From an uncultured Euryhalocaulis sp. (GTDB lineage Bacteria > Pseudomonadota > Alphaproteobacteria > Caulobacterales > Maricaulaceae): DNA of 52,794 nucleotides. The position numbers and the translations under genes are program-made. The notes beneath the pieces were generated by a model. That model did no database searches. It was not told the origin of the DNA and saw nothing but the letters and a program-made list of their open reading frames with translations. Location: NCBI GenBank assembly GCA_913055605.1, contig CAJXKJ010000018.1, positions 1 through 52,794 on the forward strand, written 5' to 3'. Shown in pieces: positions 25,482 to 41,305 of the stretch; positions within the stretch are counted from its first letter, which is position 1; the number at the start of each line of letters is the position of its first letter.

Positions 25482-28415
25482 ATGTTCGTTGGGAATACGC
25501 GTGCTCAATTCAAAGCCAGCCTGAAATGCGGTGTGTGCGCCGTCGCTGTCGGCCTTGGCATGGCCGGTACCGCCGCCGCACAGGCCGATGACGTCGTTCA
25601 GGTGACCGGCACGCGGATCCGCGCCACCGGCATGTCGACGCCGACGCCGGTGACGGTGATCCAGGCCGACGAACTGGAAAACATCGCTCCGGGCAACCTG
25701 ATCAACGCGCTGGACCAGATCCCGCAGTTCCTGAACAACCAGAGCCCGAACACCGCCGCGTCCAAGGCCGACTCGGCCGGCGCCTCCAACGTCAATCTGC
25801 GCGGCATCGGCTCCAAGCGGACGCTGGTCCTGCTGAACGGCCGCCGCGTCGTTCCGTCCAACCGCCTCGGCAATGTGGACGTGAACCTGTTCCCGGAAGA
25901 CCTGGTCGAGCGGGTCGAGACGGTCACCGGCGGCGCCTCGGCCGCCTACGGCACGGACGCCGTGGCCGGCGTGGTGAACTTCATCCTCGATACCGATTTC
26001 GAAGGCCTGAAGGGCCACGCCCAGGCCGGGATCACCGACCGCGGCGACAACGAGAATTTCGAGATCGGCCTGACCGCGGGCACCCAGCTCAACGACCGCC
26101 TGCACCTGGTCGTGTCCGGCGACTATTACGAAGCCGACCGGATCGACAATCTGGACGGCCGCGAGTGGTACACCGGCGAAGGCCTTGTCACGAACCCGGC
26201 CTGGACCGCCAGCCGCACCGCCCCGCAATACCTGGTCCTGCCGAACGTCAACTCCACCATCTACACCGATGGCGGCGTGATCGACGCGCCGGGCACCTCC
26301 ATCAACCGCCTGATGTTCAACCCGGACGGCAGCACCTCGCCCTTCGTGTTCGGCAACCCGGCCGCGGTCGGCACCGGCACCCAGTCGCAAAGCGGCGGCA
26401 GCGGCTATAACGCCACCGATTTCGACCCGACCGTCAGCACCGAGGCGTTCCCGGACGGCACGCGCTCGGGCTCCTTCGTGCCGGACTCCAAGCGCGCCAG
26501 CCTGTTCGCCAATCTGGAATGGGAAGCGACCGACAATCTGCGGCTCTACGTCCAGGGCCTGTACGGCTACAACTACGCCAACAGCGTCGGCACGCTGCCG
26601 CTCGGCCACTCGATCTGGGCGGCGACCATCTATAGCGGCAACCCGTATCTGCCGGCCGACATCCAGGCCGCGATGGACGCCGAAGGCATCAATTCCTTCC
26701 GGCTCCAGCGGTACAACACCGCCGCCGACATCGCGCAGGACCGCCTGATCCTGGAAAACCAGACCTATTCCTTCACGACCGGCCTGAACTGGCAGATCGA
26801 CGGCGGAATGTTCGCTGGCTGGGAAGTCGACGCCCACTACCAGGGCGGCCGCAACGAAAACCATCTGGATTTCGAAAACTTCGTGCGTCGGGACAAGCTG
26901 CCGCTGGCGGTGGACGCTGTGCGCGACGGCAACGGCAACATCGTCTGTAACATCACGGTGGTGAACCCGGGCACGATGTTCGACGGCTGCGTGCCGGTGA
27001 ACCTCCTCGGCAAGGGCCGCGCCTCCCAGGCCGCGGTCGATTGGGTCTCGGATTCCATGTATGTGGACGCCACGACCGAACAGCACATGGTCGAGGCCTC
27101 CGCCAATGGCGAGATCTATGACGGCTGGGGCGCGGGCGCGGTTTCGCTCGCCGTCGGCGGCTCCTACCGCGAACAGTCGATCGAACACCTGCTGGGGCCG
27201 GACGACCTGCTGGCTCTGGACTCCCTGACCAATAATGCGGCGGCGGGCATCCGCGGCGTGCCGATCGCGTTCGCTGGCCAGGACGAGGTGTTCCAGTTCG
27301 TGAACCTCGACGAGTACGAAGGCAGCTTCAACGTGAAGGAGGCCTTCGCCGAAACCCTGATCCCGCTGGTCGCCGGCACGCCGGGCTTCGAGCAGCTGAA
27401 CCTGACCGCCGCGGCCCGTTACGCCGACTATTCCGGCTCGGGCGGCATCTGGGCGTGGAAGGCCGGCCTCGACTGGCAGATCTACAGCGACCTGCGCCTG
27501 CGCGGCACGCTGTCCCGCGACGTGCGGGCCGGCTCGCTGGAAGAGCGGTTCGACCGTCAGGGCCAGGGCACCTCGGTCACCGACCCCGAACAGGGCGACC
27601 TGACCTACACCACCTTCCGCATCCGCGGCGGCAACCCGAACATCGAACCGGAAAAGGCCGAAACCATCACGGTCGGTGGCGTGTACCAGCCGTCCTACCT
27701 CCCAGGCCTGTCGGTCTCGCTCGACTATTATAAGATCGAGATCGAGGACGCGATGGACTTCCTGAGCGTTCAGGAAATCGTCGACCAGTGTTCGGACGTG
27801 GGCGGCGATATCTGCAGCCGCATCACCCGCGATCCGGGCACCGGCCTGATCACCGAGGTTCTGGACACTTATTTCAACCTCGGCGCGGCCAACAATGAAG
27901 GCATCGACCTGGAGACGGTCTACCGCTCTGACGTCAACTGGCTGGGCGGCGACGAAAGCATCAGCGCCCGTCTGCTGGTCTCCTGGCTGCTGGAAACCTC
28001 GACCACCAACGTCAACGGCGTGGTGACCGAGACCACCGGCCAGATCGGCCTGGGCTCGGCGCCGGACTCGCGCGCCACGTTCAACGTCACCTACCGGAAG
28101 GGGCCGTTCAGCCTGTTCCTGCAGGAGCGTTACATCAGCGGCGGCGTGTATGACGTCGACTGGGTCGAGGGCGTGGACATCGCCAACAACACCCAGGGCT
28201 CGGTCATGTATACCGACGCCCGCGTGGCCTACGACTTCGGCGGCCCGCGCGGCGGCGACTGGACGGCGTTCTTCAACGTCACCAACGTCTTCGATCGCGA
28301 TCCGGCCTTCGTTCCGGGCTGGTCGAGCTTCAGCGGCACCGGCTACGGCACCAATGAGGGTCTGTACGACACCCTCGGCCGCCGCTTCGTCGCGGGGATC
28401 CGCTTCCGCTACTAG
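25482..28415 (+). CDS. Large TonB-dependent outer-membrane receptor, substrate unknown
   Basis: This 977-residue receptor has a signal peptide ending in AAAQ near residue 35 and a TonB-box-like segment (DDVVQVTGTRI). The plug contains PTPVTVIQADELE, the LRGIGSKRTLVLLNGRRVVPSNR signature region and GGASAAYGTDAVAGVVNFIL. The long barrel ends in GIRFRY. It belongs to the large proteobacterial receptor group whose members often import sugars, peptides or other organic molecules and not iron chelates. There is no STN domain. It is a single-gene unit: a dyad-rich control region lies upstream and a strong terminator follows. It stands next to the uncharacterised exported-enzyme operon at 29.7-36.0 kb, so a shared substrate is plausible but unproven. 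Confidence 0.92.
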   Translation: MFVGNTRAQFKASLKCGVCAVAVGLGMAGTAAAQADDVVQVTGTRIRATGMSTPTPVTVIQADELENIAPGNLINALDQIPQFLNNQSPNTAASKADSAGASNVNLRGIGSKRTLVLLNGRRVVPSNRLGNVDVNLFPEDLVERVETVTGGASAAYGTDAVAGVVNFILDTDFEGLKGHAQAGITDRGDNENFEIGLTAGTQLNDRLHLVVSGDYYEADRIDNLDGREWYTGEGLVTNPAWTASRTAPQYLVLPNVNSTIYTDGGVIDAPGTSINRLMFNPDGSTSPFVFGNPAAVGTGTQSQSGGSGYNATDFDPTVSTEAFPDGTRSGSFVPDSKRASLFANLEWEATDNLRLYVQGLYGYNYANSVGTLPLGHSIWAATIYSGNPYLPADIQAAMDAEGINSFRLQRYNTAADIAQDRLILENQTYSFTTGLNWQIDGGMFAGWEVDAHYQGGRNENHLDFENFVRRDKLPLAVDAVRDGNGNIVCNITVVNPGTMFDGCVPVNLLGKGRASQAAVDWVSDSMYVDATTEQHMVEASANGEIYDGWGAGAVSLAVGGSYREQSIEHLLGPDDLLALDSLTNNAAAGIRGVPIAFAGQDEVFQFVNLDEYEGSFNVKEAFAETLIPLVAGTPGFEQLNLTAAARYADYSGSGGIWAWKAGLDWQIYSDLRLRGTLSRDVRAGSLEERFDRQGQGTSVTDPEQGDLTYTTFRIRGGNPNIEPEKAETITVGGVYQPSYLPGLSVSLDYYKIEIEDAMDFLSVQEIVDQCSDVGGDICSRITRDPGTGLITEVLDTYFNLGAANNEGIDLETVYRSDVNWLGGDESISARLLVSWLLETSTTNVNGVVTETTGQIGLGSAPDSRATFNVTYRKGPFSLFLQERYISGGVYDVDWVEGVDIANNTQGSVMYTDARVAYDFGGPRGGDWTAFFNVTNVFDRDPAFVPGWSSFSGTGYGTNEGLYDTLGRRFVAGIRFRY

Positions 28416-28501: not shown

Positions 28502-29563
28502 TTACTGGCCGGTCTGGAAGGGCAGGCCGCCGGCGTCCTCGTCCTCGGTCTCGGGAAGGGGCTCGACGCCGAACTCGTCATTAATGCCCAGTTCCTCGGC
28601 CTCGTCGAAGCCCAGCCATGTTTCCGGGTCGCTCAGATTCTCGGCCTGCTCGGTGCCCGGGATCGCGCCGAAATTGGACCCGCCCTCGGCGGTGCGCACC
28701 ACCGGCTGGTTCTCCGCGCAGGACCAGTGAACGATGCGGATCGCGCCGTCCGGATTGGCCACCTGGCGGTAATAGCGGACGAAATGGAACGGCTCGGTCA
28801 GCGCCTCGGGGTCGTACAGGCTGCCTTTCACCTGCATCACGCCGTCGCTGATCTCGGTCCATTCCTCCACCGTTTCGGCCTGGTTGCTGACCGCCGGCTG
28901 TTCCCGCTGCAGCAGGTTCGCCTTGATGTTGTTGGTATGGATGACCAGCGTCTCGCCGTCCCAGAAGCCGATCGAATCGCCGAACCACATCGGATAGGCG
29001 AACTCCTCCGGGATATGGCCGCGTCCGTCGGTATAGACGCGGCGCACCTCCGCCCCGGCCTCGTTCATCAGGTACGTAATGTGATCGGTCGGCGCGAACT
29101 CCTTCATAAAGGGCTCGACCAGCCAGCGCGGAAAGCCGGACGGCAGGCAATAGGTCAGCGGGTCGAAATCGTCGCCTTCCTCGGCCTTGCGGATGCGGTA
29201 TTCCAGCTCCGCCTGATAGCGGGGGGTCAGTTTCATCCCCGTCTCGGTCGCAAAGCCCCGCCCGATCAGCGGCTCGCCCGGCTGCAGGGTGAAGGAAAAG
29301 GGCGGATCGTTTTCCCACAGCCCCGACCAGTCCACCGAATCCGGCGGGGTCTGGGCGCCGCCGCCGGCGGCCGCTTCGCGCGCCTGATACTGCGCCCAGG
29401 CCGAATCGAAATCGCCCGGATTCCAGCTCGTCGCGCGGTCGGCCTGCCCGGCGTCCGGCGCGGCGTCCTGGGCCAGCGCGTCCGGCGCGATCACCGCGGC
29501 CAGTCCCGCCGCCGCCAGGGCCAGCGCGCTGACCGCGCCGGCGGTCGCCTTCAACTTCGCCAT
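28502..29563 (-). CDS. Exported protein of unknown function (SIGxWDGxTLV motif)
   Basis: This 353-residue protein has a signal peptide ending in ALAQ near residue 32. The mature part carries YCLPSGFPRWLVEPFMKEF near residues 140-160, RRVYTDGRGH, and GDSIGFWDGETLVIHTNNI. These recur, as I recall, in a widespread group of exported proteins of acidobacteria and proteobacteria that is annotated only as hypothetical. No catalytic triad or metal site is obvious. The start is chosen because GGAGGATCC lies 7 bases upstream of the ATG at 29563; longer in-frame starts lack this. It is divergent from the metallo-beta-lactamase-fold gene and convergent with the TonB receptor, so it may belong to the same functional cluster. 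Confidence 0.8.
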   Translation of the reverse strand: MAKLKATAGAVSALALAAAGLAAVIAPDALAQDAAPDAGQADRATSWNPGDFDSAWAQYQAREAAAGGGAQTPPDSVDWSGLWENDPPFSFTLQPGEPLIGRGFATETGMKLTPRYQAELEYRIRKAEEGDDFDPLTYCLPSGFPRWLVEPFMKEFAPTDHITYLMNEAGAEVRRVYTDGRGHIPEEFAYPMWFGDSIGFWDGETLVIHTNNIKANLLQREQPAVSNQAETVEEWTEISDGVMQVKGSLYDPEALTEPFHFVRYYRQVANPDGAIRIVHWSCAENQPVVRTAEGGSNFGAIPGTEQAENLSDPETWLGFDEAEELGINDEFGVEPLPETEDEDAGGLPFQTGQ

Positions 29564-29667
29564 TTTCAGGATCCTCCGGGTCATCTCGCTCCGCCCCGTG
29601 GCGGGCGCGGGCGACCCTAGCGCATGTCCCGGCGCATCCAAGACCGGCGGGCTGCGGCGTGCGCTGT

Positions 29668-29696
29668 TTGAATTGGCCCTGCCTCTGTAGGATAAT
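29668..29696 (+). promoter_or_regulatory. Predicted sigma-70 promoter of the MBL-DUF1592-DUF1552-ankyrin operon
   Basis: TTGAAT (29668-29673) and GATAAT (29691-29696) are spaced exactly 17 bases apart. Transcription would begin near 29703, giving a leader of about 45 bases with GGGAGG before the ATG at 29749. This supports the chosen start of the first gene, since earlier in-frame ATGs would lie at or before the promoter. Confidence 0.65.
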
Positions 29697-29748: not shown

Positions 29749-30666
29749 ATGATGGACCGCAGACATTTCCTGCTGTCGGCGGCGTGCGGCGCCGGCGCCC
29801 TTGGCGCGCCGTGGACCGCGCGGGCCGCGAATGCGGAAATCGTCCTGACTCCGGTCGATCCCGGCTCGGCGCTGATCACCGGCGCGGGCGGAAACATCTT
29901 CGCCACGCGCGCGGGCGAGGGCGTTGTTCTTGTGGATACCGGCTCGGCCGACGCCATCGAGGAGGTTCTGGCGCGGATCGACGCCCATTTCGGCGGCGCG
30001 CCGGTCCTGGCGGCCTTCAACACGCACTGGCATTACGATCATACCGGTGGCAACGCGGCGGTGCGTGCGCGCGGCGCAAAGATCTATGCCCATGAAAACA
30101 CGCGGCTTTGGCTCTCCGGCGATTTCGAATCGCCGTGGCAGGACCGGCATTACCGGCCGCAGCCGGAGGCCGCGCTGCCGACCGACACCTTCTATACGGA
30201 CGGCTCGGTGCGCATCGGGGACCGGGAGATTCATTACGGTCATCTGAAGCAGGCCCACACGGACGGCGATGTCTATGTCCATTTCCGCGATGCGGAAATA
30301 CTTGCTGCGGGCGGCCTTGTAACTTCGGGATACTATCCGATATTGGATTATGCGACCGGCGGCTGGATCGGGGCGATGGAAAACGCCTCCGAAGCCCTGC
30401 TGCAGGTCGCCGGGGAAAATACGCGCATCGTGCCGGAGAAGGGGCCGCTGGTCGGCCGCGATCATCTGGAGGCCCAGCATCAGATGCTCGACACCGTGAA
30501 GGAGCGGCTGTTCGAACTGGTGCGTCTGGGCCGGGGGGCGGAGGAAATGCTCGCCGCCGGCGTCACGGCGGAATTTGACGCCGAATGGGGCGACCCGACC
30601 CTGTTCGTCACGAACGCCTATCCCGGCATGTGGGCGCATTCTTATGAGGTTGGCGGTGTCGTCTGA
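29749..30666 (+). CDS. Tat-exported metallo-beta-lactamase-fold hydrolase
   Basis: This 305-residue protein has a twin-arginine-type leader (DRRHFLL, then a hydrophobic stretch to ARAA), so it should be exported folded. The metal-site motif THWHYDHTGGN (H-x-H-x-D-H) is near residue 90, KQAHTDGDVYVHF near 165 gives the next histidine, and a later Asp or His completes a binuclear zinc site of the MBL superfamily. Similar periplasmic MBL proteins occur near quinoprotein systems, but the substrate here is unknown. It is the first gene of a likely operon: its 3' end overlaps the DUF1592-type gene. The start is set by the promoter at 29668 and GGGAGG 12 bases upstream; TTG at 29743 is an alternative. 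Confidence 0.85.
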   Translation: MMDRRHFLLSAACGAGALGAPWTARAANAEIVLTPVDPGSALITGAGGNIFATRAGEGVVLVDTGSADAIEEVLARIDAHFGGAPVLAAFNTHWHYDHTGGNAAVRARGAKIYAHENTRLWLSGDFESPWQDRHYRPQPEAALPTDTFYTDGSVRIGDREIHYGHLKQAHTDGDVYVHFRDAEILAAGGLVTSGYYPILDYATGGWIGAMENASEALLQVAGENTRIVPEKGPLVGRDHLEAQHQMLDTVKERLFELVRLGRGAEEMLAAGVTAEFDAEWGDPTLFVTNAYPGMWAHSYEVGGVV

Positions 30667-33130
30667 TCGAAAACTATCCGCATCGGCCCTGAAAGCAGGC
30701 GCGCTGGCCTCTGGCGCCGCGCTGGTCGCGCTGGCGGGCCCGGCGCACGCCGCGGACAGCGGCGCGGCCGCCATCTCCGAGGAGCACTGGAGCCTGCTCG
30801 AATCCCATTGCGTGGAGTGTCACAACTTCACCGACTGGGCCGGCGGCGTGGCGTTCGACACGATGGCCCCGGACATGATCGGCGAGGACGCCGAGATCTG
30901 GGAAAGCGTGCTGCGCAAGCTGCATGGCGGCCTGATGCCCCCGCCGGGCGAGGACACGCCCGACCCGGCCGAGGTCGAGGCCTTTGCGCTGGCCATGGAG
31001 TCGGCGCTGGACCATGCCGCGGAACAGGCCGGGCCGCGCCCGGGCTATGTCACGCTGCACCGCCTGAACCGGATCGAGTATCAGAACGAGATCAAGGCGC
31101 TGTTCGACCTCGACGTCGATGTCGAGGACCTGCTGCCGCCGGACGCCGAAAGCGACGGCTTCACCAATGTCGCCAACGTGCTTCAGGTCTCCCCGACCTT
31201 CCTGGATCAATATATCGGCGCGGCGCGCCAGATCAGCATCGCGGCGGTCGGCAACGGCGCGACCTTCGCCGACGAAGTCACCTATCTGAACCCGGCCGAG
31301 CAGAACCAGAACGTCCATGTCGCCGGCCTGCCGCTCGGCAGCCGCGGCGGCCTGAAGGTGGAGCATTATTTCCCGGTGGACGGGGAGTATCAGTTCACCA
31401 TCGGCCTCGGCTCGCGCGGCGGCGACCTGCTGCGCGCCTATCCGACCGGCTGGTTGGAGCTTCCGCACACTTTGGTCTTCGCCATCGACGGCAAGCCGGT
31501 CTTCCACGCCGATGTCGGCGGCGAAGAGGACATGCGCGCCGTCGACCAGCTGCAGCAATCGGCGGTGATGAGCATCCTCAGCCGGTTCGAGAACATTCCG
31601 TTCGAGATGGAGAGCGGCGAGCACACGCTGACCGCCGCCTTCATCGGCCACACTTTGGCTGAGGGCGACGACATCCTGCAGAACCCGGTGCACGGCATCG
31701 GCATGGACGACGTGCCGATCATCACCCTGCTGAACGTCATCGGCCCGTTCGACGTGAAGGGCGTGGGCGACACGCCCAGCCGCAACAAAATTTTCTCCTG
31801 CTATCCGGACAGCGAGGCGGAGCAGCGCCCCTGCGCCGAACAGATCCTGACCCGCCTGGCGGAACAGGCCTATCGCCGCCCCGCCACCCATGGCGAGGTG
31901 CAGAACCTGATGGGCTTCTATGACGCGGGCGCGGCGGAGGAAGGCTTCGAGACCGGCGTGCAGAAGGCGCTGATGGCGATGCTGTCCAGCACCAATTTCC
32001 TGTACCGCGTCGAACAGGCGCCGGACCAGCTCGCCCCCGGCGAGGCGTTCGCGCTGGACGGCATGGCGCTGGCCTCCCGCCTGTCCTTCTTCCTGTGGAG
32101 CCAGGGACCGGACGCGGAGCTGCGCGAACTGGCAGAGGCCGGCGAGCTGTCCAAGGCGCGCGTGCTGCGCGGCCAGATCGACCGCATGCTGGCCGATCCG
32201 CGCGCCGAGGCGCTAGTCGATAATTTCGGCTTCCAGTGGCTGGGCGCGGAGAAGATTCACCAGATCAATCCCGACCCGCGCGTCTTCCCGAATTTCGACG
32301 AGGATCTGCGCGAGGCCTTCGGCGTGGAGCTGGAGATGTTCCTGGAGGACGTCCTGCTCGACGACCGCAGCGTGCTGGAGCTGATCGACGCCCACTACAC
32401 CTTCCTGGACGAGCGTCTGGCCCGCCATTACGGCGTGACGGACGTCCAGGGCGCCAATTTCCGCCGCGTGGAACTGGACGACCCCACGCGCTGGGGCTTG
32501 CTCGGCAAGGGCGCGGTCCTGATGTCCACCTCCTATCCCAACCGCACCTCGCCGGTGCTGCGCGGGGCCTGGATTCTGGACACGCTGATCGGCGCGCCGC
32601 CCGCCGCGCCGCCGCCGGGCGTGGAGACCAATCTGGATAACGAGCCCGGCCAGGCCGCGCTGACCCTGCGCACACGGCTGGCCCAGCACCGCGCCGATCC
32701 GTCCTGCAATCAGTGCCACGGCGTGATCGACCCGCTGGGCCTGGCGCTGGAGAATTTCGACGCCATCGGCGAATGGCGCGATATCGACCGCTTCGCCGGA
32801 GAGCAGATCGACGCGACCGGCGTCCTGGCCGGCACGGGTCACGAGATCACCGGCCCGATCGACCTGCGCAACGCGCTGGCCGATCATCCGGAGCGGTTCG
32901 TGCAGACCTTCACCGAAAGCCTGATGACCTACGCGCTCGGCCGCCGGGTGGAGTATTACGACATGCCGGTCGTGCGCCAGATCGTCCGCGACGCGGAACA
33001 GGACGGCTATCGCTTCTCGTCCATCGTGACGGGGATTATCGAGGCCGACGCGTTCCGCATGCAGACCATTCCCGCGTCGGCGGAGGCGGACGACCCCCGC
33101 CCCGTCGACGAAGCTTCGTTGCAGCCGTAA
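30656..33130 (+). CDS. Exported DUF1592/DUF1588/DUF1585-type protein with two haem-binding motifs
   Basis: This 824-residue protein has a signal peptide ending in AHAAD near residue 34. A cytochrome-like motif CVECH (52-56) starts a Planctomycete-cytochrome-type region with GGLMPPPGE. DUF1587-like (RLNRIEYQNEIKALFDLDV), DUF1595/1592-like (LAEQAYRRPATHGEV, LASRLSFFLWS), DUF1588-like (SYPNRTSPVLRGAWILDTLIG) and DUF1585-like (YALGRRVEYYD) segments follow in order. A second motif CNQCH is at 684-688. These multidomain proteins are abundant in planctomycetes and have no assigned reaction. The haem motifs suggest electron transfer in the periplasm. The GTG at 30656 is preferred since GAGG lies 6 bases upstream; ATG at 30644 is the alternative. 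Either way it overlaps the MBL gene. Confidence 0.85.
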   Translation: MSSDRKLSASALKAGALASGAALVALAGPAHAADSGAAAISEEHWSLLESHCVECHNFTDWAGGVAFDTMAPDMIGEDAEIWESVLRKLHGGLMPPPGEDTPDPAEVEAFALAMESALDHAAEQAGPRPGYVTLHRLNRIEYQNEIKALFDLDVDVEDLLPPDAESDGFTNVANVLQVSPTFLDQYIGAARQISIAAVGNGATFADEVTYLNPAEQNQNVHVAGLPLGSRGGLKVEHYFPVDGEYQFTIGLGSRGGDLLRAYPTGWLELPHTLVFAIDGKPVFHADVGGEEDMRAVDQLQQSAVMSILSRFENIPFEMESGEHTLTAAFIGHTLAEGDDILQNPVHGIGMDDVPIITLLNVIGPFDVKGVGDTPSRNKIFSCYPDSEAEQRPCAEQILTRLAEQAYRRPATHGEVQNLMGFYDAGAAEEGFETGVQKALMAMLSSTNFLYRVEQAPDQLAPGEAFALDGMALASRLSFFLWSQGPDAELRELAEAGELSKARVLRGQIDRMLADPRAEALVDNFGFQWLGAEKIHQINPDPRVFPNFDEDLREAFGVELEMFLEDVLLDDRSVLELIDAHYTFLDERLARHYGVTDVQGANFRRVELDDPTRWGLLGKGAVLMSTSYPNRTSPVLRGAWILDTLIGAPPAAPPPGVETNLDNEPGQAALTLRTRLAQHRADPSCNQCHGVIDPLGLALENFDAIGEWRDIDRFAGEQIDATGVLAGTGHEITGPIDLRNALADHPERFVQTFTESLMTYALGRRVEYYDMPVVRQIVRDAEQDGYRFSSIVTGIIEADAFRMQTIPASAEADDPRPVDEASLQP

Positions 33131-33150
33131 GGCGGCAGGAGGACACGCAG

Positions 33151-34467
33151 ATGTATATCCGCAAGAAACACCTTTCCCGCAGAACGATGCTGCAGGGCGT
33201 TGGCGCCGCCGTCTCCCTGCCGTTTCTGGAGGCGATGGTGCCCGCCGGAACCGCGCTGGCCCAGACCGCCGCGGCCCCCAAACCCCGCATGGGCTATTTC
33301 TATCTGCCGCACGGCGCGATCATGGATCGCTGGACGCCGGAAACCGCCGGCCGCGACTACGTCATGCCGGAAATCCTGTCGCCGATGGAACGGCACCGGG
33401 CCTATCTGACGGTCGTCTCCAATCTGGACAACAAATCGGCGGTCAGCTCCGCGGTGCACGCGATCACGCCGGGCACTTGGCTGTCCTGCGCGCCGCCGCG
33501 GCGCAGCCACGCGCCCTATGTCGGCACAACGGCCGACCAGGTCGCCGCCGCCCATATCGGGCAGGACACCAAGCAACCGTCCGTGGAGGCGGCGATCGAG
33601 GCGCGCGGCGGGGATTCGGCCTGCGACGGCACCTATGGGTGCAGCGTCGGCAACACCATCTCCTTCCGCAACCCGACCACCCCGCTGCCGATGGAGTACA
33701 GCCCGCGCAAATTCTTCGCGACGCTGTTCGGCCGCGGCGCCACGAAAGACGAGCGCGACGAGATCGCGGAGGATTTTCGCTCCGTCCTCGACATGATCGG
33801 CGGCGAGGCGAAAACGCTGAAGCGCGACCTGGGCGCGCAGGACCGTGTCGTGCTGGACAATTATCTGGACAGCGTGCGGGAGATCGAACGCCGCGTCGCG
33901 ATGGTCGAACAGGAAGACCTGACCCAGTACGACCTGCCGGACCTGCCCACCGGCGTGCCGGATTTCGACCAGCGCCTGAACCTGATGTTCGACATGATCG
34001 CCATCGGCTATCAGGCCAATGTCACGCGCGTGGCCACGATGATGATGGCGGCGGAGGTGTCCAACACCGCCTACACCCATATCGACATCGCGGACGCCTT
34101 CCACCCGCTGTCGCACCACCAGAACAAGCGTCCGAACATGGACAAGCTGGTGATCCTCCAGCGCTATCACATGCAGCGCTTCGCGGAGTTCCTGGACAAG
34201 CTGGCCGAGATGCCGGACGGCGAGGGCAGTGTGCTCGACAACGCCATCTTCCTGTACGGCGGCAATATGAGCAATTCGAACGCCCACGATCACTACCCGC
34301 TGCCGATCACCGTGGTCGGCAAGGGCGCCGGCACGATCAAGGGCGGCCAGCATCTGGTCTATCCGGAGCGCACGCCGCTCGCGAACCTGCACCTGACGCT
34401 GCTGCAAAAGGCGGGCGTGCCGATCGAGTCTTTCGGAGACTCGGACGGCGTGCTGTCGGAGGTCTGA
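33151..34467 (+). CDS. Tat-exported DUF1552 family protein
   Basis: This 438-residue protein carries a twin-arginine signal (SRRTMLQGVGAAVSLPFLEAM) characteristic of the DUF1552/DUF1501 group. Mature-domain features include the YFYLPHGAIMDRWTP strand-loop near residues 50-64, the segment TWLSCAPPRRSHAPYVGTTADQ, CDGTYGCSVG, and NAHDHYPLPITVVG near residue 380. The fold is thought to be distantly related to alkaline phosphatase or sulfatase-like enzymes, but no reaction is known. DUF1552 genes regularly follow DUF1592-type genes, as here (20-base gap), so the two products probably form a complex or act in one pathway. AGGAGG lies 10 bases before the ATG. Confidence 0.88.
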   Translation: MYIRKKHLSRRTMLQGVGAAVSLPFLEAMVPAGTALAQTAAAPKPRMGYFYLPHGAIMDRWTPETAGRDYVMPEILSPMERHRAYLTVVSNLDNKSAVSSAVHAITPGTWLSCAPPRRSHAPYVGTTADQVAAAHIGQDTKQPSVEAAIEARGGDSACDGTYGCSVGNTISFRNPTTPLPMEYSPRKFFATLFGRGATKDERDEIAEDFRSVLDMIGGEAKTLKRDLGAQDRVVLDNYLDSVREIERRVAMVEQEDLTQYDLPDLPTGVPDFDQRLNLMFDMIAIGYQANVTRVATMMMAAEVSNTAYTHIDIADAFHPLSHHQNKRPNMDKLVILQRYHMQRFAEFLDKLAEMPDGEGSVLDNAIFLYGGNMSNSNAHDHYPLPITVVGKGAGTIKGGQHLVYPERTPLANLHLTLLQKAGVPIESFGDSDGVLSEV

Positions 34468-34469
34468 TC

Positions 34470-35999
34470 ATGACGCGTCTTCTCGCCGCCGCGTGCGCGG
34501 CCCTTCTCGCCGGCGGTCCGGCCCTGGCCGGCCCGCTGGCCGACGCCGCCCAGGCGGGCGACAGCGAGACGGCGCAACAGCTGATCCGGGACGGCGCCGA
34601 CGTGAACGCGCCGTCGGCGGATGGCACCACGGCCCTGCACTGGGCGGTCTATAACGGCGACGCTGACCTCGTACGCCGCCTGCTGCGCAAGGACGCGGAC
34701 GTATCCGCCGCCAATCTCTACGGCGCCACGCCGATGCAGGAGGCCGCGGTCCGCGGCGATGCGGACATTCTGGAAATGCTGCTGGACGCCGGCGCCGATG
34801 TCGACGCGCCGAACGCGGACGGCCAGACCGCTTTGATGGTCGTCGCCCGCACCCGCAATGTGGAGGCCGCGCGCCTGCTGCTCGATCACGGCGCGGATGT
34901 GAACGCCGCCGAATGGCGCGGCCAGACCCCGCTGATGTGGGCCGCCGCCCAGCAACAGCCCGAAATGATCCGCGTCCTGCTGGATGCGGGCGCGGACCCG
35001 AACGTCCGCTCCCCCGCCAACAACTACAAGCGCCAGATCACCGCGGAGTCCCGCTATATCTGGCGGCCCTCCGGCGGCTGGACCGCGCTGCTGCTGGCCG
35101 CGCGCGAGGGCTGTCTGGACTGCGTCGATGCGCTGCTGGACGGCGGGGCGGAGATCGACCGGGGCAATCCGGAAAATGTCAGCCCTCTGCTGATCGCCAC
35201 GATGAATTTCCATTTCGACACCGCGAAGCTGTTGATCGGGCGCGGCGCCAATGTCGACAAATGGGACTGGCGCGGCCGCAACCCGCTCTATGCGGCGATC
35301 GACCTGAACACGCTGCCCCATGGCGGCCGGGCCGACCTGCCGACCACGGACGACACCTCGGCGCTGGAGCTGGCGCGCATCCTGCTGGAGGCCGGCGCCA
35401 ACCCGAACCTGCAGCTGAAGCTCAATCCCGGCTATCGCAACACCAAGGACGACCGCGGCGCGGACGGCCAGCTGACGATCGGCGCCACGCCGCTGGCCCG
35501 CGCGGCCAAGGCGTTCGACGTCGACGCCATCAAACTGCTGGCCGAATATGACGTGCTGACCGAACTGCCGAACGAAAACGGCGTCACGCCGCTGATGCTG
35601 GCCGCCGGTTTCGGCACGCTCGCCCGCGACACGCGCGGCGTCTACGACACGCCCGACACGCAGGACCGCGCCATCGCCGCCATCCAGGCGCTGCTGGATA
35701 TCGGCGCGGACATCGCCGCGACCGAGAATAACGGCCAGACCGCGGCCTTCGGCGCCGCCGGCTGGGGCTGGACCGATGTCGTGGTGTTCCTGGGCGAAAG
35801 CGGCCTGCGCATGGATATCCGGGACGACCGCGGCAACACCGCGCTGGACGTGGCGCTGGGCCGTGTCTCGCGCGGCGTGCGCACGCTCACCGTCTCCTAT
35901 CCCGAAACCGGCGCGGCGATCGAGGATCTGATCGCCCGGCAGCAGGCCGGGGAGATCGTGACCCAGGCCGGCGCCGCGACGGACGAAGAGCCCGCCTGA
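34470..35999 (+). CDS. Exported ankyrin-repeat protein
   Basis: This 509-residue protein has an N-terminal signal peptide ending in ALAGP near residue 21, so the repeats should face the periplasm. At least ten ankyrin repeats run to about residue 470, with the usual G-x-TALHWAV, A-x-x-LLLDHGADVNA and GQTPLMWAA patterns. Non-repeat insertions lie between repeats near residues 175-195 and 290-330. A CLDC pair occurs near residue 213. Ankyrin proteins bind partners and have no catalysis of their own, so it is probably a scaffold for the DUF1592 and DUF1552 proteins. The ATG starts 2 bases after the DUF1552 stop codon, so translation is likely coupled. Confidence 0.9.
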   Translation: MTRLLAAACAALLAGGPALAGPLADAAQAGDSETAQQLIRDGADVNAPSADGTTALHWAVYNGDADLVRRLLRKDADVSAANLYGATPMQEAAVRGDADILEMLLDAGADVDAPNADGQTALMVVARTRNVEAARLLLDHGADVNAAEWRGQTPLMWAAAQQQPEMIRVLLDAGADPNVRSPANNYKRQITAESRYIWRPSGGWTALLLAAREGCLDCVDALLDGGAEIDRGNPENVSPLLIATMNFHFDTAKLLIGRGANVDKWDWRGRNPLYAAIDLNTLPHGGRADLPTTDDTSALELARILLEAGANPNLQLKLNPGYRNTKDDRGADGQLTIGATPLARAAKAFDVDAIKLLAEYDVLTELPNENGVTPLMLAAGFGTLARDTRGVYDTPDTQDRAIAAIQALLDIGADIAATENNGQTAAFGAAGWGWTDVVVFLGESGLRMDIRDDRGNTALDVALGRVSRGVRTLTVSYPETGAAIEDLIARQQAGEIVTQAGAATDEEPA

Positions 36000-36107
36000 T
36001 TCCGGTCACGATTTTAGGCCCTGATGCGGGTCCTGATTGCGGGCCATGACGCAGCGGCGGCGGCGCCCTATGGTCCGCCCGCCCCACAGCGCCGAAAGGT
36101 TATTTGC

Positions 36108-36623
36108 ATGTTTCGACTGAGCTTCCGCGCGGCCCTGCTCGCGCCCGTTCTGGCCATCGCCGCGCCGGCCATGGCCTTCGCCCAGGATGACGCAGCGGAT
36201 GTTCCGCAGTGGGACGTGGTGTGCCCGCAGGCGCAGGAGGGCGCAGTGGACCCCGGCTGCTCGCTGGTCCGGAACATTCTGGTCGGCGACGGCGTGAACA
36301 ATCAGCGCCTGCTGACCGTGCTGCTCCAGCCGGACGGCGCAGACGGCCGCACGCTGGTGCTGGCGCTGCCGCACGGCCTGTATTTCCCGTCCGGCGTCCA
36401 GATTTCGGTGGACGGCGGCGCCCCCACGCTCGTGCCGGTTCAGACCAGCGACGCCAGCGGCGCCTATGGCGGCATTCCCATGACGCCGGAGCTTCTGTCC
36501 TCCTTCCGCGCCGGGTCGGAAATGACCGTCAGCTTCGTGTCGGTGGACCAGGAAGGCCTGGCCGTGCCGGTGCCGCTGGACGGCTTCAGCGCCGGCTATG
36601 ACCGGATGGTCGCCGGCCAATAG
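36108..36623 (+). CDS. Invasion-associated locus B (IalB) family protein
   Basis: This 171-residue exported protein has a signal peptide ending in AFAQ near residue 23. It shows the IalB family pattern: WDVVCPQ, a second cysteine in PGCSLVRN, LTVLLQPD, LALPHGLYFPSGVQISVDGG and a C-terminal VSFVSVDQEGLAVPVPLDGFSAGY. The family is widespread in alphaproteobacteria. Only the Bartonella member has been tied to erythrocyte invasion, so here the role is more likely general envelope biology. GAAAGG lies 8 bases before the ATG at 36108; the frame opens earlier but without signal-peptide logic. It is separate from the ankyrin gene and the btu operon. Confidence 0.82.
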   Translation: MFRLSFRAALLAPVLAIAAPAMAFAQDDAADVPQWDVVCPQAQEGAVDPGCSLVRNILVGDGVNNQRLLTVLLQPDGADGRTLVLALPHGLYFPSGVQISVDGGAPTLVPVQTSDASGAYGGIPMTPELLSSFRAGSEMTVSFVSVDQEGLAVPVPLDGFSAGYDRMVAGQ

Positions 36624-36725: not shown

Positions 36726-38678
36726 ATGCCGCAAACCGGGAAGGCGCAATGGCGTCTCACGCTGGCGCTGGCCGGTCTTCTGGCGTCCGCCGCTTCGCCG
36801 GCGTTCGCCCAGACCGCCCAACCGCCCGCCGCCCCACAAATCGGCGACCGCGCCTCTGACGTCATCGTGGTGACCGGCGCGGCGACCCCGGTGGAGCGGC
36901 AAAAGATCGGCGCCTCCCTCACCGTGCTGGACGGCGCGCTGATCCGGGACGGGGGCTATGACTATGTCAGCGACGCGCTGCGCCAGACGCCGGGCCTCGC
37001 GGTCAGCCGGCCCGGCGGCTTCGGCGGCCTGACCCAGGTCCGCATCCGCGGGGCGGAGGGCAATCACACTTTGGTCTTGCTGGACGGCGTCGACGTTTCC
37101 CCCGCCACGGACGGGGAGACGGATCTCTCCACGCTGCTGTCCGCCAATGTCCAGCGGATCGAGATCCTGCGCGGTCCGCAGAGCGGCCTTTACGGCTCCA
37201 ACGCCATTGGCGGGGTCATCAATGTCATCACCCGCCGCGATGTCGACGGCCGCTATTACGAGCTGAGCGGAGAGGGCGGTTCGTTCGAAACCTATGCCCT
37301 GACCGCCGCGGGCGGGATCGGCGCGGACGCGCGCTTCATCGCCGCCGGCGCGGCCTATCGCGACACGCAGGGCTTCGACATCTCGCGCGGCGGTCCCACG
37401 GACGATCGCGAGGGCGACAGCAATCTGACCCTGTATCTGCGCGGCGGCGCGGCGCTGTCTCCCGCCTTGCGCCTGGATGGCTTCCTGCGCCATGTCGACA
37501 AGGAAAGCGGCGGCGACGGGTTCGACTTTTCCGGAATCCCCGGCCTTCAGGGCTACGCCGTAGACGACGCCACCGTGACGGAGTCGGAGGATTTCAACGC
37601 CGCCGGCTCCGCGACGCTCAGCCCGATTGAAGACCGCTGGGTCACCACCGTCTCGGGCGCCTATACCGACACCCGCTCCGACTCCGCAACGTTCGGCTCG
37701 GCGGCCACGCGCACGAAATTCGCCCTGCAATCCTCCCTGCGCTTTGGCGGGCCGGAATTCCTCTCCACGCTGACCGGCTTCGCCGAGGCGAAGCGGGAAA
37801 CGTTCCGCAATCTCTACCCCTTCACGCCGGATCAAATCCCGCAACAGTCGCGCGACCTGACCGGCGTCGGGGCCGAATACCGCGCCGAAATCGCGCGCCA
37901 GCTCTATCTGTCCGCCACGGTCCGCCATGACGGCAACGAGGATTTCGAGGACGCGGAGACGTTCGGCCTCGCCGCGTCCTGGGTGATCCCGGACAGCGGC
38001 TCGCGCCCGCACGCCAGTCTCGGGACCGGCGTGACCAATCCAAGTTTCTTCGAACAGTTCGGCTTCACGCCCGGAACCTTCACCGGCAATCCGGCCCTGG
38101 TCCCGGAAGAGGCGTTCGGCTGGGACGCGGGGCTGGAGCAGACCTTTGCGGACGGGCGCGCGGTCGTGGACCTCACCTATTTCCGCGCCGATCTGGATCG
38201 GGAGATCGTCGCCTGCTTCCCCTCCGTCTGTAACGATACGGGGCGCAGCGAGCGGGAGGGCGTGGAGCTCTCCCTCCGCCTCTATCCGGCGGACGGCCTG
38301 GACATTCTCGGCTCCTGGACCTGGCTGGACGCGCGGGACGCTGGCGGCGATCCCGAGGTGCGCCGGCCGGAAAACATGGCCAGCTTCGACATCGTGAAAC
38401 GCTTCGGCGGCGACCGCGCGCATCTGGCCCTCGGCGTGACCTATAATGGCGAGATGCTGGACGATGATTTCCGAGGCGGCTTCACCCCGGTCCGCACGGC
38501 GATCGGCGACTACACGCTGGTGCGGCTGGCCGGTTCGCTGCGCCTGACCGACCGGGTGGAGGCGTTCGGCCGGATCGAGAACGTGTTCAACACGCCATAC
38601 GAAGAGGCGCTGACCTATCGCACGCCGGGCCGCGCCATCTATGCCGGCCTGCGCCTGTCCGGCGGGTCCTCCCATTAG
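36726..38678 (+). CDS. btuB: TonB-dependent vitamin B12 receptor (BtuB-like)
   Basis: This 650-residue outer-membrane receptor has a signal peptide ending at AFAQ near residue 29 and a TonB-box-like DVIVVTGAA. The plug segments LTQVRIRGAEGNHTLVLLDGV and VQRIEILRGPQSGLYGSNAIGGVINVITRR closely follow E. coli BtuB (FIRGTNASHVLVLIDGV, YGSDAIGGVVNIITTR). A 22-strand barrel ends at the C-terminus. Size is in the BtuB range (about 600). The genes that follow encode a periplasmic binding protein, a FecCD-type permease and an ATPase, so the set imports a TonB-dependent substrate, best read as cobalamin. A cobalt or iron chelate is possible. The last 38 bases overlap the start of btuF. Confidence 0.8.
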   Translation: MPQTGKAQWRLTLALAGLLASAASPAFAQTAQPPAAPQIGDRASDVIVVTGAATPVERQKIGASLTVLDGALIRDGGYDYVSDALRQTPGLAVSRPGGFGGLTQVRIRGAEGNHTLVLLDGVDVSPATDGETDLSTLLSANVQRIEILRGPQSGLYGSNAIGGVINVITRRDVDGRYYELSGEGGSFETYALTAAGGIGADARFIAAGAAYRDTQGFDISRGGPTDDREGDSNLTLYLRGGAALSPALRLDGFLRHVDKESGGDGFDFSGIPGLQGYAVDDATVTESEDFNAAGSATLSPIEDRWVTTVSGAYTDTRSDSATFGSAATRTKFALQSSLRFGGPEFLSTLTGFAEAKRETFRNLYPFTPDQIPQQSRDLTGVGAEYRAEIARQLYLSATVRHDGNEDFEDAETFGLAASWVIPDSGSRPHASLGTGVTNPSFFEQFGFTPGTFTGNPALVPEEAFGWDAGLEQTFADGRAVVDLTYFRADLDREIVACFPSVCNDTGRSEREGVELSLRLYPADGLDILGSWTWLDARDAGGDPEVRRPENMASFDIVKRFGGDRAHLALGVTYNGEMLDDDFRGGFTPVRTAIGDYTLVRLAGSLRLTDRVEAFGRIENVFNTPYEEALTYRTPGRAIYAGLRLSGGSSH

Positions 38679-39528
38679 GGCCCGCGCCGCGCTCCTGGCG
38701 CTGGCGCTGCTCGCCGCGCCGGCCGCCCATGCCCAGATTCAGGCCCAGGCGCCGGACCGGCCCATGCGCATCGTCTCCCTGAACATGTGCACCGATGAGC
38801 TGCTGATGCGCCTGGTGGAGCCGGAACGCATCGCCTCCATCACCTTCCTGTCGAAAGCGCCGGACGGCGCCCCGCCGGGGCTGGAGCAAATCGCCGCCGC
38901 CCTGCCGGCCAATCACGGTCTGGCGGAGGAGGTGATCGCCCAGCGCCCCGACCTGATCGTCGCCGGCGCCTTCACTACGCGCCCCGCCGTCCAGCTTCTG
39001 CGGCGCCTCGGCTATGCGGTGATCGACTTCGCGCCGGAGGCCGACTTCGACGACATGCGCGCCCACATCCTGCTTATGGGCGATGCGGTCGGGGAGACGG
39101 CGCGCGCCGCGGCGTTGGTGGCGGACATGGACGCCCGGCTGGACGCCCTCTGGGACTCGCTGCCCGGCGACGCGCCGGTCTACGCCGATATCGGCGCGAA
39201 CTTCTATCTGCCGGGCGCCGGTACGCTGGCCGCCGCGATCACAAACGCCGGCGGCTACCGCACGCTGGGGCAGACGCTGGGCGTGCAGGGCGCCGCGAAC
39301 CTGCCGCTGGAGCAGATCGTGCTGGCCGATCCGGACCTCATTTCCAACAGCGCCGCCCCGGCCGGACCACCCGCCATGGCGACCCAGTCCCTGCGCCACC
39401 CGGCCCTTCGCCGCCTGACGGCGCGCGCCGAAACGGTCGAAATCCCGTCCCGGCTCTGGGCGTGCGGCGCGCCGTCCGCGCTGCGCGCGGCCGAAATCCT
39501 CGCCGCGGCGCACGGGGCGGACCGGTGA
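38641..39528 (+). CDS. btuF: ABC transporter periplasmic binding protein (BtuF-like)
   Basis: This 295-residue periplasmic protein of the cluster-A/COG0614 binding family has a signal peptide ending in AAHAQ near residue 32. The two-lobed domain contains RIVSLNMCTDELLMRLV near the start, RPDLIVAGAFTTRPAVQLLRRLGY, and TLGQTLGVQGAANLPLEQIVLADPDLI, all as in BtuF-like proteins. It should take the substrate from BtuB to the BtuCD transporter. The only in-frame start is ATG at 38641, which overlaps btuB by 38 bases and has no good ribosome-binding site, implying coupling to btuB translation. It overlaps btuC by four bases. Confidence 0.82.
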   Translation: MPACACPAGPPIRARAALLALALLAAPAAHAQIQAQAPDRPMRIVSLNMCTDELLMRLVEPERIASITFLSKAPDGAPPGLEQIAAALPANHGLAEEVIAQRPDLIVAGAFTTRPAVQLLRRLGYAVIDFAPEADFDDMRAHILLMGDAVGETARAAALVADMDARLDALWDSLPGDAPVYADIGANFYLPGAGTLAAAITNAGGYRTLGQTLGVQGAANLPLEQIVLADPDLISNSAAPAGPPAMATQSLRHPALRRLTARAETVEIPSRLWACGAPSALRAAEILAAAHGADR

Positions 39529-40523
39529 AAACCCCGTCCTTTCCCCTGCTCCTCGGCCTGCTTTCCGGCCTCCTGATCCTGTTCCTTGCGGCCTCGCTCC
39601 TGATCGGGCCGAGCGCGGCGGGCGTGTTCTCCCTGCCGCGCGCCTTCGCCCGCGGCGACACCGAACTGGCCTGGATCGTCGCGCTGGAGATTCGCCTGCC
39701 GCGCACATTGCTGGCTGCGATGGTCGGCGCCACGCTCGGCCTCGCCGGCGCCGCGCTGCAGGGCTATCTGCGCAATCCGCTGGCCGATCCGGGCGTGATC
39801 GGCGTCTCGTCCAGCGCCGCTTTGGGCGCGGTTCTGGCGCTCTACACCGGTCTTTCGGCGGTGATTCCGCTGGCCTTGCCGCTCGCCGCCATCGCCGGGG
39901 CGCTCGCCTGCGCGCTGCTGCTGCAGGGGCTGGCCGGGCGGGGCGGGGTGCTGACCCTGATCCTGGCGGGCGTCGCCATCGCCAGCCTGGCCGGCGCGCT
40001 GTCCGCGCTGGCGCTCAATCTGTCGCCCAATCCCTATGCGGCGCTGGAGATCGTGTTCTGGCTGCTCGGCTCGGTCACCGACCGCAGCCTGAATCATGTC
40101 TGGCTGTCCGCGCCCTTCATCCTGGCCGGCTGGGCGCTGCTCGCCGCCAGCGCCCCGTCGCTGGAGGCGCTGACTCTGGGCGAGGACGCCGCGGCCAGCA
40201 TGGGCGTGGACCTTGCCCGCACGCGCTGGCTGGTCGTGGGCGGCGCGGCGCTGTGTGTCGGCGCGGCCACCGCCGTGTCCGGCGTCATCGGCTTTATCGG
40301 CCTGATCGTTCCGCATCTGGTCCGCCCGCTGGTTGGCCACAGTCCGGGCCGCGTCCTGCCCGCCAGCGCGCTGGCCGGCGCGGCCCTGCTGACCGCCGCC
40401 GACGTGCTGGTCCGCCTGCTTCCCACGGGCGGGGAGCTGCGCCTTGGCGTCGTCACCGCGCTGATCGGCGCGCCGTTCTTCCTCTGGCTCGTCATCCGGG
40501 CGCGGGTGGAGCTGGAGCCATGA
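39525..40523 (+). CDS. btuC: FecCD/BtuC-type ABC transporter permease
   Basis: This 332-residue inner-membrane permease has about ten hydrophobic helices and family signatures: LEIRLPRTLLAAMVGATLGLAGAALQGYLRNPLADPGVIGVSSSAALGAV (seen in fragments such as RLPRTL and NPLADP), then TAVSGVIGFIGLIVPHLVRPLVGHSPG, the loop that contacts the ATPase. It starts with GTG overlapping the btuF stop (GTGA), with GGGGCGG 7 bases upstream. It should form the BtuC dimer with the ATPase encoded next. Confidence 0.9.
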   Translation: MKTPSFPLLLGLLSGLLILFLAASLLIGPSAAGVFSLPRAFARGDTELAWIVALEIRLPRTLLAAMVGATLGLAGAALQGYLRNPLADPGVIGVSSSAALGAVLALYTGLSAVIPLALPLAAIAGALACALLLQGLAGRGGVLTLILAGVAIASLAGALSALALNLSPNPYAALEIVFWLLGSVTDRSLNHVWLSAPFILAGWALLAASAPSLEALTLGEDAAASMGVDLARTRWLVVGGAALCVGAATAVSGVIGFIGLIVPHLVRPLVGHSPGRVLPASALAGAALLTAADVLVRLLPTGGELRLGVVTALIGAPFFLWLVIRARVELEP

Positions 40524-41305
40524 TGCTGGAGGCGCGCGGAATCACCGTCCCCATCGCGGGCTGCGACATCGTGAAGGACGCCGGTTTCACCCTGCGCAGC
40601 GGGGAGTTCGCGGGCCTGATCGGCCCCAACGGCGCCGGCAAATCCACTTTGCTGCGCGCCGCGCTCGGCCTGCGCTCGCGAAGCGCGGGCACGGTGACGC
40701 TGGACGGACAGCCCTTCGCCGCCATGAATCCGCGCGCCAGGGCCCGCGCCGTCGCCTGGTTTCCGCAGGACCGGCGCGTGGAATGGCGCCTGACCGCGCG
40801 GGACATCGTGATGCTGGGCCGGTTTCCCCACCGCGCCGCCTTTGGCGGGCCGACGCCCGCCTGCCGCGCCGCGGCGGATGCCGCGCTCGCCGACGCGGAC
40901 GCATCGCATCTGGCCGACCGTCCCGTCTCCGTCCTGTCGGCGGGGGAGCGCACCCGCGTTCTGCTGGCCCGCGCGCTGGCGGTGGAGGCGCCGCTGCTGC
41001 TCGCCGACGAGCCGACCGCCGCCCTCGACCCCTATCACCAGATCCATGTGATGGAGATCCTGCAGAAGCGCGCCCGCGCCGGGGCGGGGGTCCTGGCCGT
41101 CACGCACGATCTCTCGCTAGCCGCCCGCTTCATGGACCGGGTCATCGTGCTGCATCGCGGGGAGGTTCTGGGCGACGGCCCGCCGGCGGAGATGCTGACG
41201 CCCGAGCGGACCGGCGCCGTCTATGGCGTCGACGTGGTGTCGGGCCAGCGGGACGGCCAGCCCTTCATCCTGCCCTGGGCCCGAACGAACCCCACAAGCA
41301 GCTGA
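40520..41305 (+). CDS. btuD: ABC transporter ATP-binding protein (BtuD-like)
   Basis: This 261-residue ATPase has Walker A GPNGAGKST (about 36-44), a Q-loop in AWFPQDRR, the signature SVLSAGERTRVLLARAL, Walker B LLLADEPTAALD and the switch histidine in AVTHD. The signature LSAGE in place of LSGGE is a mild change also seen in related iron/B12 ATPases. The ATG overlaps the btuC stop (ATGA), completing a btuB-F-C-D chain in which every junction overlaps. It should power uptake through BtuC. Confidence 0.9.
   Translation: MMLEARGITVPIAGCDIVKDAGFTLRSGEFAGLIGPNGAGKSTLLRAALGLRSRSAGTVTLDGQPFAAMNPRARARAVAWFPQDRRVEWRLTARDIVMLGRFPHRAAFGGPTPACRAAADAALADADASHLADRPVSVLSAGERTRVLLARALAVEAPLLLADEPTAALDPYHQIHVMEILQKRARAGAGVLAVTHDLSLAARFMDRVIVLHRGEVLGDGPPAEMLTPERTGAVYGVDVVSGQRDGQPFILPWARTNPTSS

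Follow-up and report, generated by a model that had tools for sequence, protein, structure and literature searches.

What do four exported proteins, encoded one behind the other in an uncultured Euryhalocaulis sp., do together in the periplasm? The window (the whole stretch of 52,794 nucleotides analyzed here) is contig C18 of a genome of 3.16 Mb in 98 contigs. Between positions 29749 and 35999 it carries genes for a metallo-beta-lactamase (MBL)-fold protein, a DUF1592-type protein, a DUF1552 protein, and an ankyrin-repeat protein. Comparison across genomes showed that this cassette is conserved as a unit, with proteins that diverge in step, and that quinoprotein dehydrogenases are found near sampled cassettes more often than in control windows.

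All four genes are on the + strand. The MBL-fold protein (29749..30666; Pfam Lactamase_B) has a twin-arginine translocation (Tat)-type signal and is followed by the DUF1592-type protein (30644..33130, ATG start), which has two c-heme motifs and matches six PSD/PSCyt Pfam models. The DUF1552 protein (33151..34467; PF07586, HXXSHH), also with a Tat-type signal, was located by a six-frame genome search with the Pfam profile, and the last gene (34470..35999; Ank_2) encodes an exported ankyrin-repeat protein that is a probable scaffold. The MBL and DUF1592 genes overlap by 23 bases, or by 11 if translation of the latter starts at the GTG at 30656. Gaps of 20 and 2 bases separate DUF1592 from DUF1552 and DUF1552 from the ankyrin gene, respectively. 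Twin-arginine motifs at the start of the MBL and DUF1552 proteins, and the ordinary signal-like N terminus of the ankyrin protein, were read from the sequence. On each of these points, including the tandem arrangement and the two CxxCH motifs of DUF1592, we agree with an earlier reading of the same DNA made from the letters alone (the sequence-only reading).

The four genes recur as a conserved cassette

Conserved co-occurrence of the genes had been set beforehand as the test of that reading, and the result was strongly positive in the source genome and in other bacteria. Profile searches of the source contigs found 11 DUF1592 genes and 12 DUF1552 matches, two of which, one at an end of contig C86 and the other at an end of C9, are apparently halves of a single gene. 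The DNA around the pairs was read with a simple gene caller for which the window served as training set; all 11 DUF1592-DUF1552 pairs had an ankyrin gene and an MBL-fold gene alongside. The order MBL-DUF1592-DUF1552-ankyrin was present in 9 of the 11 cassettes, one of them split over C86 and C9; in the other two, the MBL gene comes last (contig C5, near 94 to 101 kb) or lies between DUF1552 and ankyrin (contig C4). The nine other full-length DUF1552 proteins of the genome are 48 to 61 percent identical to the window copy.

Species-representative genomes were then scanned with the DUF1552 alignment, and the best 79 of 330 confirmed places were taken as loci. Their titles name Gammaproteobacteria, Bryobacterales/Terriglobia, other Acidobacteria, one member of the Caulobacterales, and a few others. 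The exact gene order of the window was found at 51 of these best 79 loci. DUF1592 stood beside DUF1552 at 74 (3 of the 5 misses are contig ends), ankyrin at 75 (1 of 4 misses), and MBL at 61 (12 of 18 misses). Because it is made of nearest relatives, this set is a favorable sample. A second sample of 40 DUF1552 places was therefore of interest; it came from 38 genomes hand-picked from the 55 indicated by the record names at the 79 loci, and every one of the 38 held several DUF1552 matches (3 to 25 per genome, median 12.5). DUF1592 was near 38 of the 40 places, ankyrin near 39, and MBL near 16; without the five places that repeat the first set, the counts were 33, 34, and 12 of 35. In 40 control windows from the same genomes, DUF1592 and ankyrin were each found 0 times and MBL 3 times. 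The control windows, together with the 11 cassettes of the source genome, place the neighborhood beyond chance. Since MBL accompanies only 16 of 40 sampled places, DUF1592-DUF1552-ankyrin is the constant core, and MBL marks part of the family.

At L104, L105, L128, L136, L150, L153, and L155, the layout is different: the ankyrin gene precedes the other two (ankyrin-DUF1592-DUF1552), and there is no MBL gene. As a separate observation on the titles, the DUF1552 rows of L038, L046, L056, and L081 place with environmental Gammaproteobacteria or Bryobacterales, and the titles of these metagenome bins (Klebsiella pneumoniae, Bordetella parapertussis, Acidimicrobiia) are probably wrong.

Cassette proteins diverge in step, and cassettes probably move as units

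Pairwise distances among nine complete cassettes of the source genome (of its 11) correlated between the four proteins in all six protein pairs, with rho of 0.51 to 0.73; permutations reached values as high in 0, 0, 0, 11, 16, and 37 of 2000 cases. This test, made inside one genome, is free of the species-tree confound. In 40 foreign cassettes, the first 40 complete ones among the 51 with standard order, rho was 0.57 to 0.77, and 0 of 2000 permutations were as high for any pair. We regard this in-step divergence as the strongest sign that the products of a cassette may work together.

The DUF1552 tree, built by a quick method, has 132 rows. The split DUF1552 gene (C86/C9) is absent from the DUF1552 alignments and tree, one of the 11 own MBL genes (split over two stretches) is absent from the MBL alignments, and one ankyrin gene cut by a contig end is absent from the ankyrin alignment; the wider alignments also omit sequences with stops, low score, or short length. 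DUF1552 rows without an MBL gene cluster in the tree (6 changes versus 19.3 in shuffles). One branch with support 99 holds 104 rows; of the 85 rows with MBL it includes 83, and of the 30 without MBL it includes 6. Rows of the ankyrin-first, MBL-less layout all fall outside it. MBL is thus found mainly in one subclade of the module.

The ten complete DUF1552 copies of the source genome are scattered over the tree (8 changes, shuffled mean 9.4; the starred branches force at least 3), and several are sisters of foreign sequences. The C4 copy is sister to gammaproteobacterial L092 with support 100, and both of these cassettes are ordered DUF1592-DUF1552-MBL-ankyrin. Because the own copies do not group and several are sister to foreign ones, the set was probably gathered by transfer of ready-made cassettes and not by recent duplication, with loss in relatives as the alternative.

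The distribution among relatives is patchy, which likewise makes lateral transfer likely. The one same-genus genome gave no DUF1552 match, nor did 58 of 60 near relatives, DUF1552 being present in the other 2; in a class-wide draw, any DUF1552 was found in 5 of 190 genomes, the source genome included, and one of the five was under the family cut-off. Such patchiness would also suit the idea that the genes are neighbors without joint work, brought together by chance or by shared transfer of unrelated genes. Given the recurrence of the genes, the zero counts for DUF1592 and ankyrin in controls, and the in-step divergence inside one genome, we consider this very improbable for the core trio.

DUF1552 has a predicted alkaline phosphatase-like fold and invariant histidines

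The window DUF1552 protein matches PF07586 at 3.2e-77 (260.2 bits against a cut-off of 30), with the HxxSHH motif present as HPLSHH. RRxxL is found in all 95 DUF1552 rows that have an N terminus. No credible solved chain matches the protein by sequence at E up to 1; the one row returned is at chance level. The structure model (predicted local distance difference test [pLDDT] score, 90.0) predicts an alkaline phosphatase/sulfatase-like fold: it matches sulfatases, nucleotide phosphodiesterases, and alkaline phosphatases over the whole range, the best match being a sulfatase (VIA; Z 16.9, root mean square deviation [rmsd] 3.8, 265 aligned), and 446 of 715 aligned chains reached Z 8 or more. Foldseek gave E 2.8e-07 with a query TM of 0.43.

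His103, His318, His322, and His379 are present in 132 of 132 rows, His323 and His401 in 129, and His54 in 121. In the model, His54 comes after core strand one and His103 at the start of the helix behind strand two, with the others in later loops; these positions coincide with the active-site places of the alkaline phosphatase superfamily. Pro-His-Gly follows strand 7-12 and Gly-x-Asn-Met lies at strand 326-331, two places at which members of the superfamily carry Asp and Ser/Thr/Cys.

The predicted fold raises the possibility that DUF1552 is a hydrolase resembling the sulfatases or phosphodiesterases of this superfamily and trims a glycan or ester, while the DUF1592 heme protein assists attack on a polymer, a role that has been suggested for cytochromes of the planctomycete type found near sulfatases. 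Sulfatases and nucleotide phosphodiesterases fill the match list of the model, and the DUF1592 protein has a domain resembling carbohydrate-binding modules (CBMs; see below). In two studies, a protein combining CBM2 and DUF1592, with its best hit in Cellvibrio, is listed in a lignocellulose multi-omics table (PMC6004670), and PSCyt genes are described as often near sulfatase genes in Verrucomicrobia (PMC5615132). No sequence-level link between DUF1552 and sulfatases was found, however, and a Pfam scan of neighbors (140 of 214 flanking and 140 of 396 control proteins) had no glycoside hydrolase family among the 25 commonest of the 140 flanking proteins. In addition, Pro-His-Gly and Gly-x-Asn-Met occupy the places of the Asp and Ser/Thr/Cys residues of the superfamily. 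A hydrolase of this kind is, in our view, quite unlikely.

DUF1592 carries two heme motifs and a predicted beta-sandwich domain

In the window DUF1592 protein, PSD4, PSCyt3, PSD2, PSD5, PSD3, and PSCyt1 (PF07631 with PF07627, PF07624, PF07637, PF07626, and PF07635) each scored above the Pfam cut-off, and the domains are ordered PSCyt1-PSD3-beta-sandwich-PSD5-PSD4-PSCyt3-PSD2. The CxxCH motifs are CVECH and CNQCH, at amino acids 56-60 and 688-692. The first is kept in 117 of 119 rows (the other two are gapped there) and the second in 119 of 119. Met98, in an MPP motif downstream of the first heme motif, is present in all 119 rows; the invariant Met-Pro-Pro is as in class I cytochromes c. His682, six residues before the second heme motif, is likewise present in 119 of 119 rows, and Met774 in 109.

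The model of this protein covers 778 residues (pLDDT, 91.1). A beta-sandwich, formed in it by construct residues 166-333, has structural similarity to CBM35/CBM36 modules and TNF/C1q-type domains at a middling Z of 7 to 8, the best row having Z 8.0 and rmsd 3.6 over 113 residues. Among the listed PDB matches none fits the helical part, which for a 778-residue model is no evidence of a new fold, and no credible solved chain matches the sequence at E up to 1 (two rows at chance level).

Might the DUF1592 protein itself be the enzyme, a di-heme peroxidase or oxygenase in the style of MauG and RoxA, with the DUF1552, ankyrin, and MBL proteins serving assembly or binding substrate? It is the largest protein of the cassette and carries the CBM-like domain. 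Its second heme motif and His682 are invariant, and the sixth ligand of that heme may be open or variable, because Met774 is less constant. The first heme, in contrast, looks like an electron-transfer heme, and an enzymatic DUF1592 would leave the invariant histidines and Tat-type signal of DUF1552 unexplained. The missing fold and sequence matches also speak against it but prove little with a model of this length. We judge this explanation unlikely, though it deserves weight.

The MBL-fold and ankyrin proteins

The MBL-fold protein matches Lactamase_B (PF00753) with 62.3 bits against a cut-off of 22.7, and its best solved matches by sequence are beta-lactamases. An early RR is present in 58 of 70 aligned MBL rows. 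With the di-zinc ligand numbering of the superfamily and residues mapped by alignment, the window copy has 5 of the 7 ligands: HWHYDH and the third-motif His are kept, and the bridging Asp and last His are lost. The first site is whole in 51 of 70 members, the second in 1, and the full seven-residue set in 1. By this alignment, the family has mostly lost its di-zinc site. Zinc hydrolysis, the role given to this protein in the sequence-only reading, is therefore unlikely, and we rejected it as the likely role; the presence of an MBL gene at a minority of the second sample of loci also speaks against it. The ankyrin protein matches Ank_2 with 216.9 bits in 6 stretches.

Quinoprotein neighbors and a possible oxidoreductase function

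Dehydrogenases dependent on pyrroloquinoline quinone (PQQ) were found near 9 of 40 sampled cassettes but near 0 of 40 controls (one-sided p = 0.0012; one of ten neighbor families tried). The Pfam scan gave 7 PQQ and 7 cytochrome c (CBB3) matches among the 140 flanking proteins; neither was among the 25 commonest families of the 140 control proteins, a list whose last rows have one member. Cytochrome c-prime was near 4 of 40 cassettes versus 0 controls (p = 0.058) and cytochrome b561 near 3 of 40 versus 0 (p = 0.12). In the source genome, PQQ dehydrogenase genes number about 20.

Together, a Tat-exported protein carrying a set of conserved histidines, a cytochrome with two heme motifs and a binding-like domain, a scaffold, diverged copies, and quinoprotein neighbors point to an oxidoreductase family. 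We lean, tentatively and with somewhat less than even confidence, toward reading the four genes as a single copy of a modular oxidoreductase of the periplasm that is linked to cytochromes and varied to suit different substrates. DUF1552 would be the catalytic subunit; it would take up its metal in the cytoplasm and then leave through Tat in folded form. DUF1592 would be exported unfolded and would receive its hemes in the periplasm, where it would help hold the substrate through its CBM-like beta-sandwich and pass electrons from DUF1552 to a soluble cytochrome c and the respiratory chain. As the scaffold, the ankyrin protein would keep the subunits together, and the MBL-fold protein would be an accessory (one-metal or substrate-binding) subunit of one subfamily. 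Each diverged cassette would serve a different substrate, which we propose as the reason why genomes hold several of them. Our guess at these substrates, compatible with some neighbors, is plant-derived carbohydrates or aromatic alcohols.

Several points weigh against an oxidoreductase. Tat signals also occur on proteins without redox function. The link of DUF1552 to its fold rests on a predicted model, with a Foldseek query TM of only 0.38 to 0.46 for the ten best rows, and a profile comparison of DUF1552 with sulfatases found nothing (probability, 0.26 percent). In that comparison a reading frame was obtained for 9 of 12 sulfatase and 11 of 22 DUF1501 loci; the DUF1552-DUF1501 result (P = 0.0007) was not used, and at least one DUF1501 row is apparently out of frame. 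That the DUF1552 histidines may form one site is suggested by their place along the chain, not by measurement. Only two of the PQQ genes of the source genome lie within 10 kb of a cassette (by eye), and the PQQ excess elsewhere covers just 9 of 40 loci.

A broader claim is possible but doubtful: the cassettes may belong to a widespread, unnamed class of periplasmic oxidoreductases in which the alkaline phosphatase fold has been rebuilt with a histidine-bound metal center, redox runs through a di-heme partner, and an ankyrin protein is the scaffold. The class would span at least two phyla (Pseudomonadota and Acidobacteriota), with several to 25 diverged copies per genome, exchanged as units. 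If DUF1552 is a redox enzyme, this would mean new chemistry for a fold associated so far with the hydrolysis of phosphate and sulfate esters, and if the class is real, a large part of environmental periplasmic oxidation is still to be assigned. A DUF1552-bearing unit with multiple matches in each of the 38 genomes counted, in at least two phyla, is in any case a large hole in the reading of environmental genomes. The core trio, the invariant residues, and the eleven diverged copies in one genome are defined targets that make the cassette testable.

Comparison with known systems

As the sequence-only reading had held, no reaction was found for DUF1592 or DUF1552 in the literature searched, which covered few subscription papers and no preprints; nor was a description of the ankyrin-containing trio or the MBL-bearing quartet found there. 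The domain families are already known, although functionally blank. A study of Verrucomicrobia (PMC5615132) states that PSCyt3 genes usually adjoin a family of unknown genes, which its section 13 leaves unnamed, and mentions DUF1552 three times. In R. baltica, according to PMC2754498, the sister domains PSD1/PSC2 have a redox function and reach 41 copies per genome. In PMC7789669, DUF1592, DUF1588, DUF1587, and DUF1595 appear among domains to add for anaerobic Pseudomonas putida. The PSCyt/PSD and DUF1552 proteins of Planctomycetes and Verrucomicrobia share domain families with the window cassette; unlike them, the unit described here has a constant exported ankyrin protein and an MBL protein in one subclade and is found in Pseudomonadota and Acidobacteriota.

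The alkaline phosphatase/sulfatase superfamily resembles DUF1552 in predicted fold, whereas DUF1552 has four invariant histidines and no sequence-level similarity to sulfatases was found in the profile comparison. In NCBIfam, the top-ranked matches of the MBL protein include the quinoprotein relay system zinc metallohydrolases, TIGR04559 (best; 70.1 bits, cut-off 280) and TIGR04558 (third; 62.1 bits, cut-off 300), both far under their cut-offs; in contrast to that group, the second zinc site is incomplete in 69 of 70 MBL members. The export routes and roles proposed for the cassette are like those of gluconate dehydrogenase-type periplasmic enzymes, in which Tat exports the catalytic subunit and another subunit is a c-type cytochrome, but no flavin or PQQ family matched the four cassette proteins in Pfam. 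SusC/D-type polysaccharide utilization loci offer another likeness: there as here, a genome has many diverged copies, and every copy includes a binding-like domain; unlike them, the cassettes have no conserved receptor and no glycoside hydrolase among their commonest neighbors.

Other neighboring genes

Upstream, the cassette adjoins a TonB-dependent receptor (25482..28415, +) and, divergent to it, an exported protein with no Pfam or NCBIfam match (28502..29584, -). Both had been counted as parts of a module in which TonB import leads to zinc hydrolysis by the MBL protein and then to electron transfer. The position of the receptor fits such a module, as does that of its best paralogue (69 percent identical), which lies between two other cassettes on contig C9. 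Neither gene is a conserved partner in other genomes. Close relatives of the receptor, sought with a three-sequence profile that covers close relatives only, were at 2 of 40 loci versus 3 of 40 controls, and the Pfam scan counted TonB receptors 4 times among 140 flanking and twice among 140 control proteins. The family of the exported protein was at 7 of 40 loci and 7 of 40 controls, though in 24 of the 79 first loci; it has 17 matches in the source genome, the closest (64 percent) near another cassette on contig C2. With the MBL gene and its di-zinc ligands as inconstant as described above, import followed by zinc hydrolysis is improbable. What holds from that proposal is a multi-gene periplasmic system with a redox part; zinc hydrolysis, the receptor, and the exported neighbor are not supported as parts.

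Three further neighbor families were tried as cassette parts and rejected. DUF6152 was found at 7 of 40 loci versus 5 of 40 controls, though in 14 of the 79 first loci; the Pfam scan differs here, with 5 of 140 flanking proteins and no place among the 25 commonest control families. SAM-methyltransferase neighbors (13 of the 79 first loci but 0 of 40 in the second sample) and RPE65-type neighbors (5 of 79 but 1 of 40) are not general. In the source genome, two of seven RPE65-type (carotenoid-cleavage-like) genes lie beside two C2 cassettes (L010:2126-5354, -); one of the two has a Tat signal match, and the C2 cassettes also adjoin an FAD-linked oxidase gene.

The "one clear promoter" claimed earlier for the cassette is a weak detail: a sigma-70-like site (TTGAAT-17-GATAAT, 9 of 12 positions) is present at 29668..29696 (+), but the scanned region has 2 such sites versus 0.9 +/- 1.0 in shuffles. 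Because this number is not above the shuffled expectation, the site is a candidate only. Directly downstream of the cassette, on the same strand, lies a gene for an IalB-family protein (36024-36623).

Elsewhere in the window, two PQQ-dependent dehydrogenases with C-terminal cytochrome c domains are encoded at 13141-15447 and 15639-17894 (-). The segment 19752-24984 holds sigma factor- and FecR-like genes (by eye), followed by a TonB receptor of siderophore type and a PepSY membrane protein, an ordinary iron-uptake group. At 36726-41305, also by eye, a BtuB-like receptor, a periplasmic binding protein, an ABC permease, and an ATPase are arranged as in a vitamin B12/heme uptake operon.

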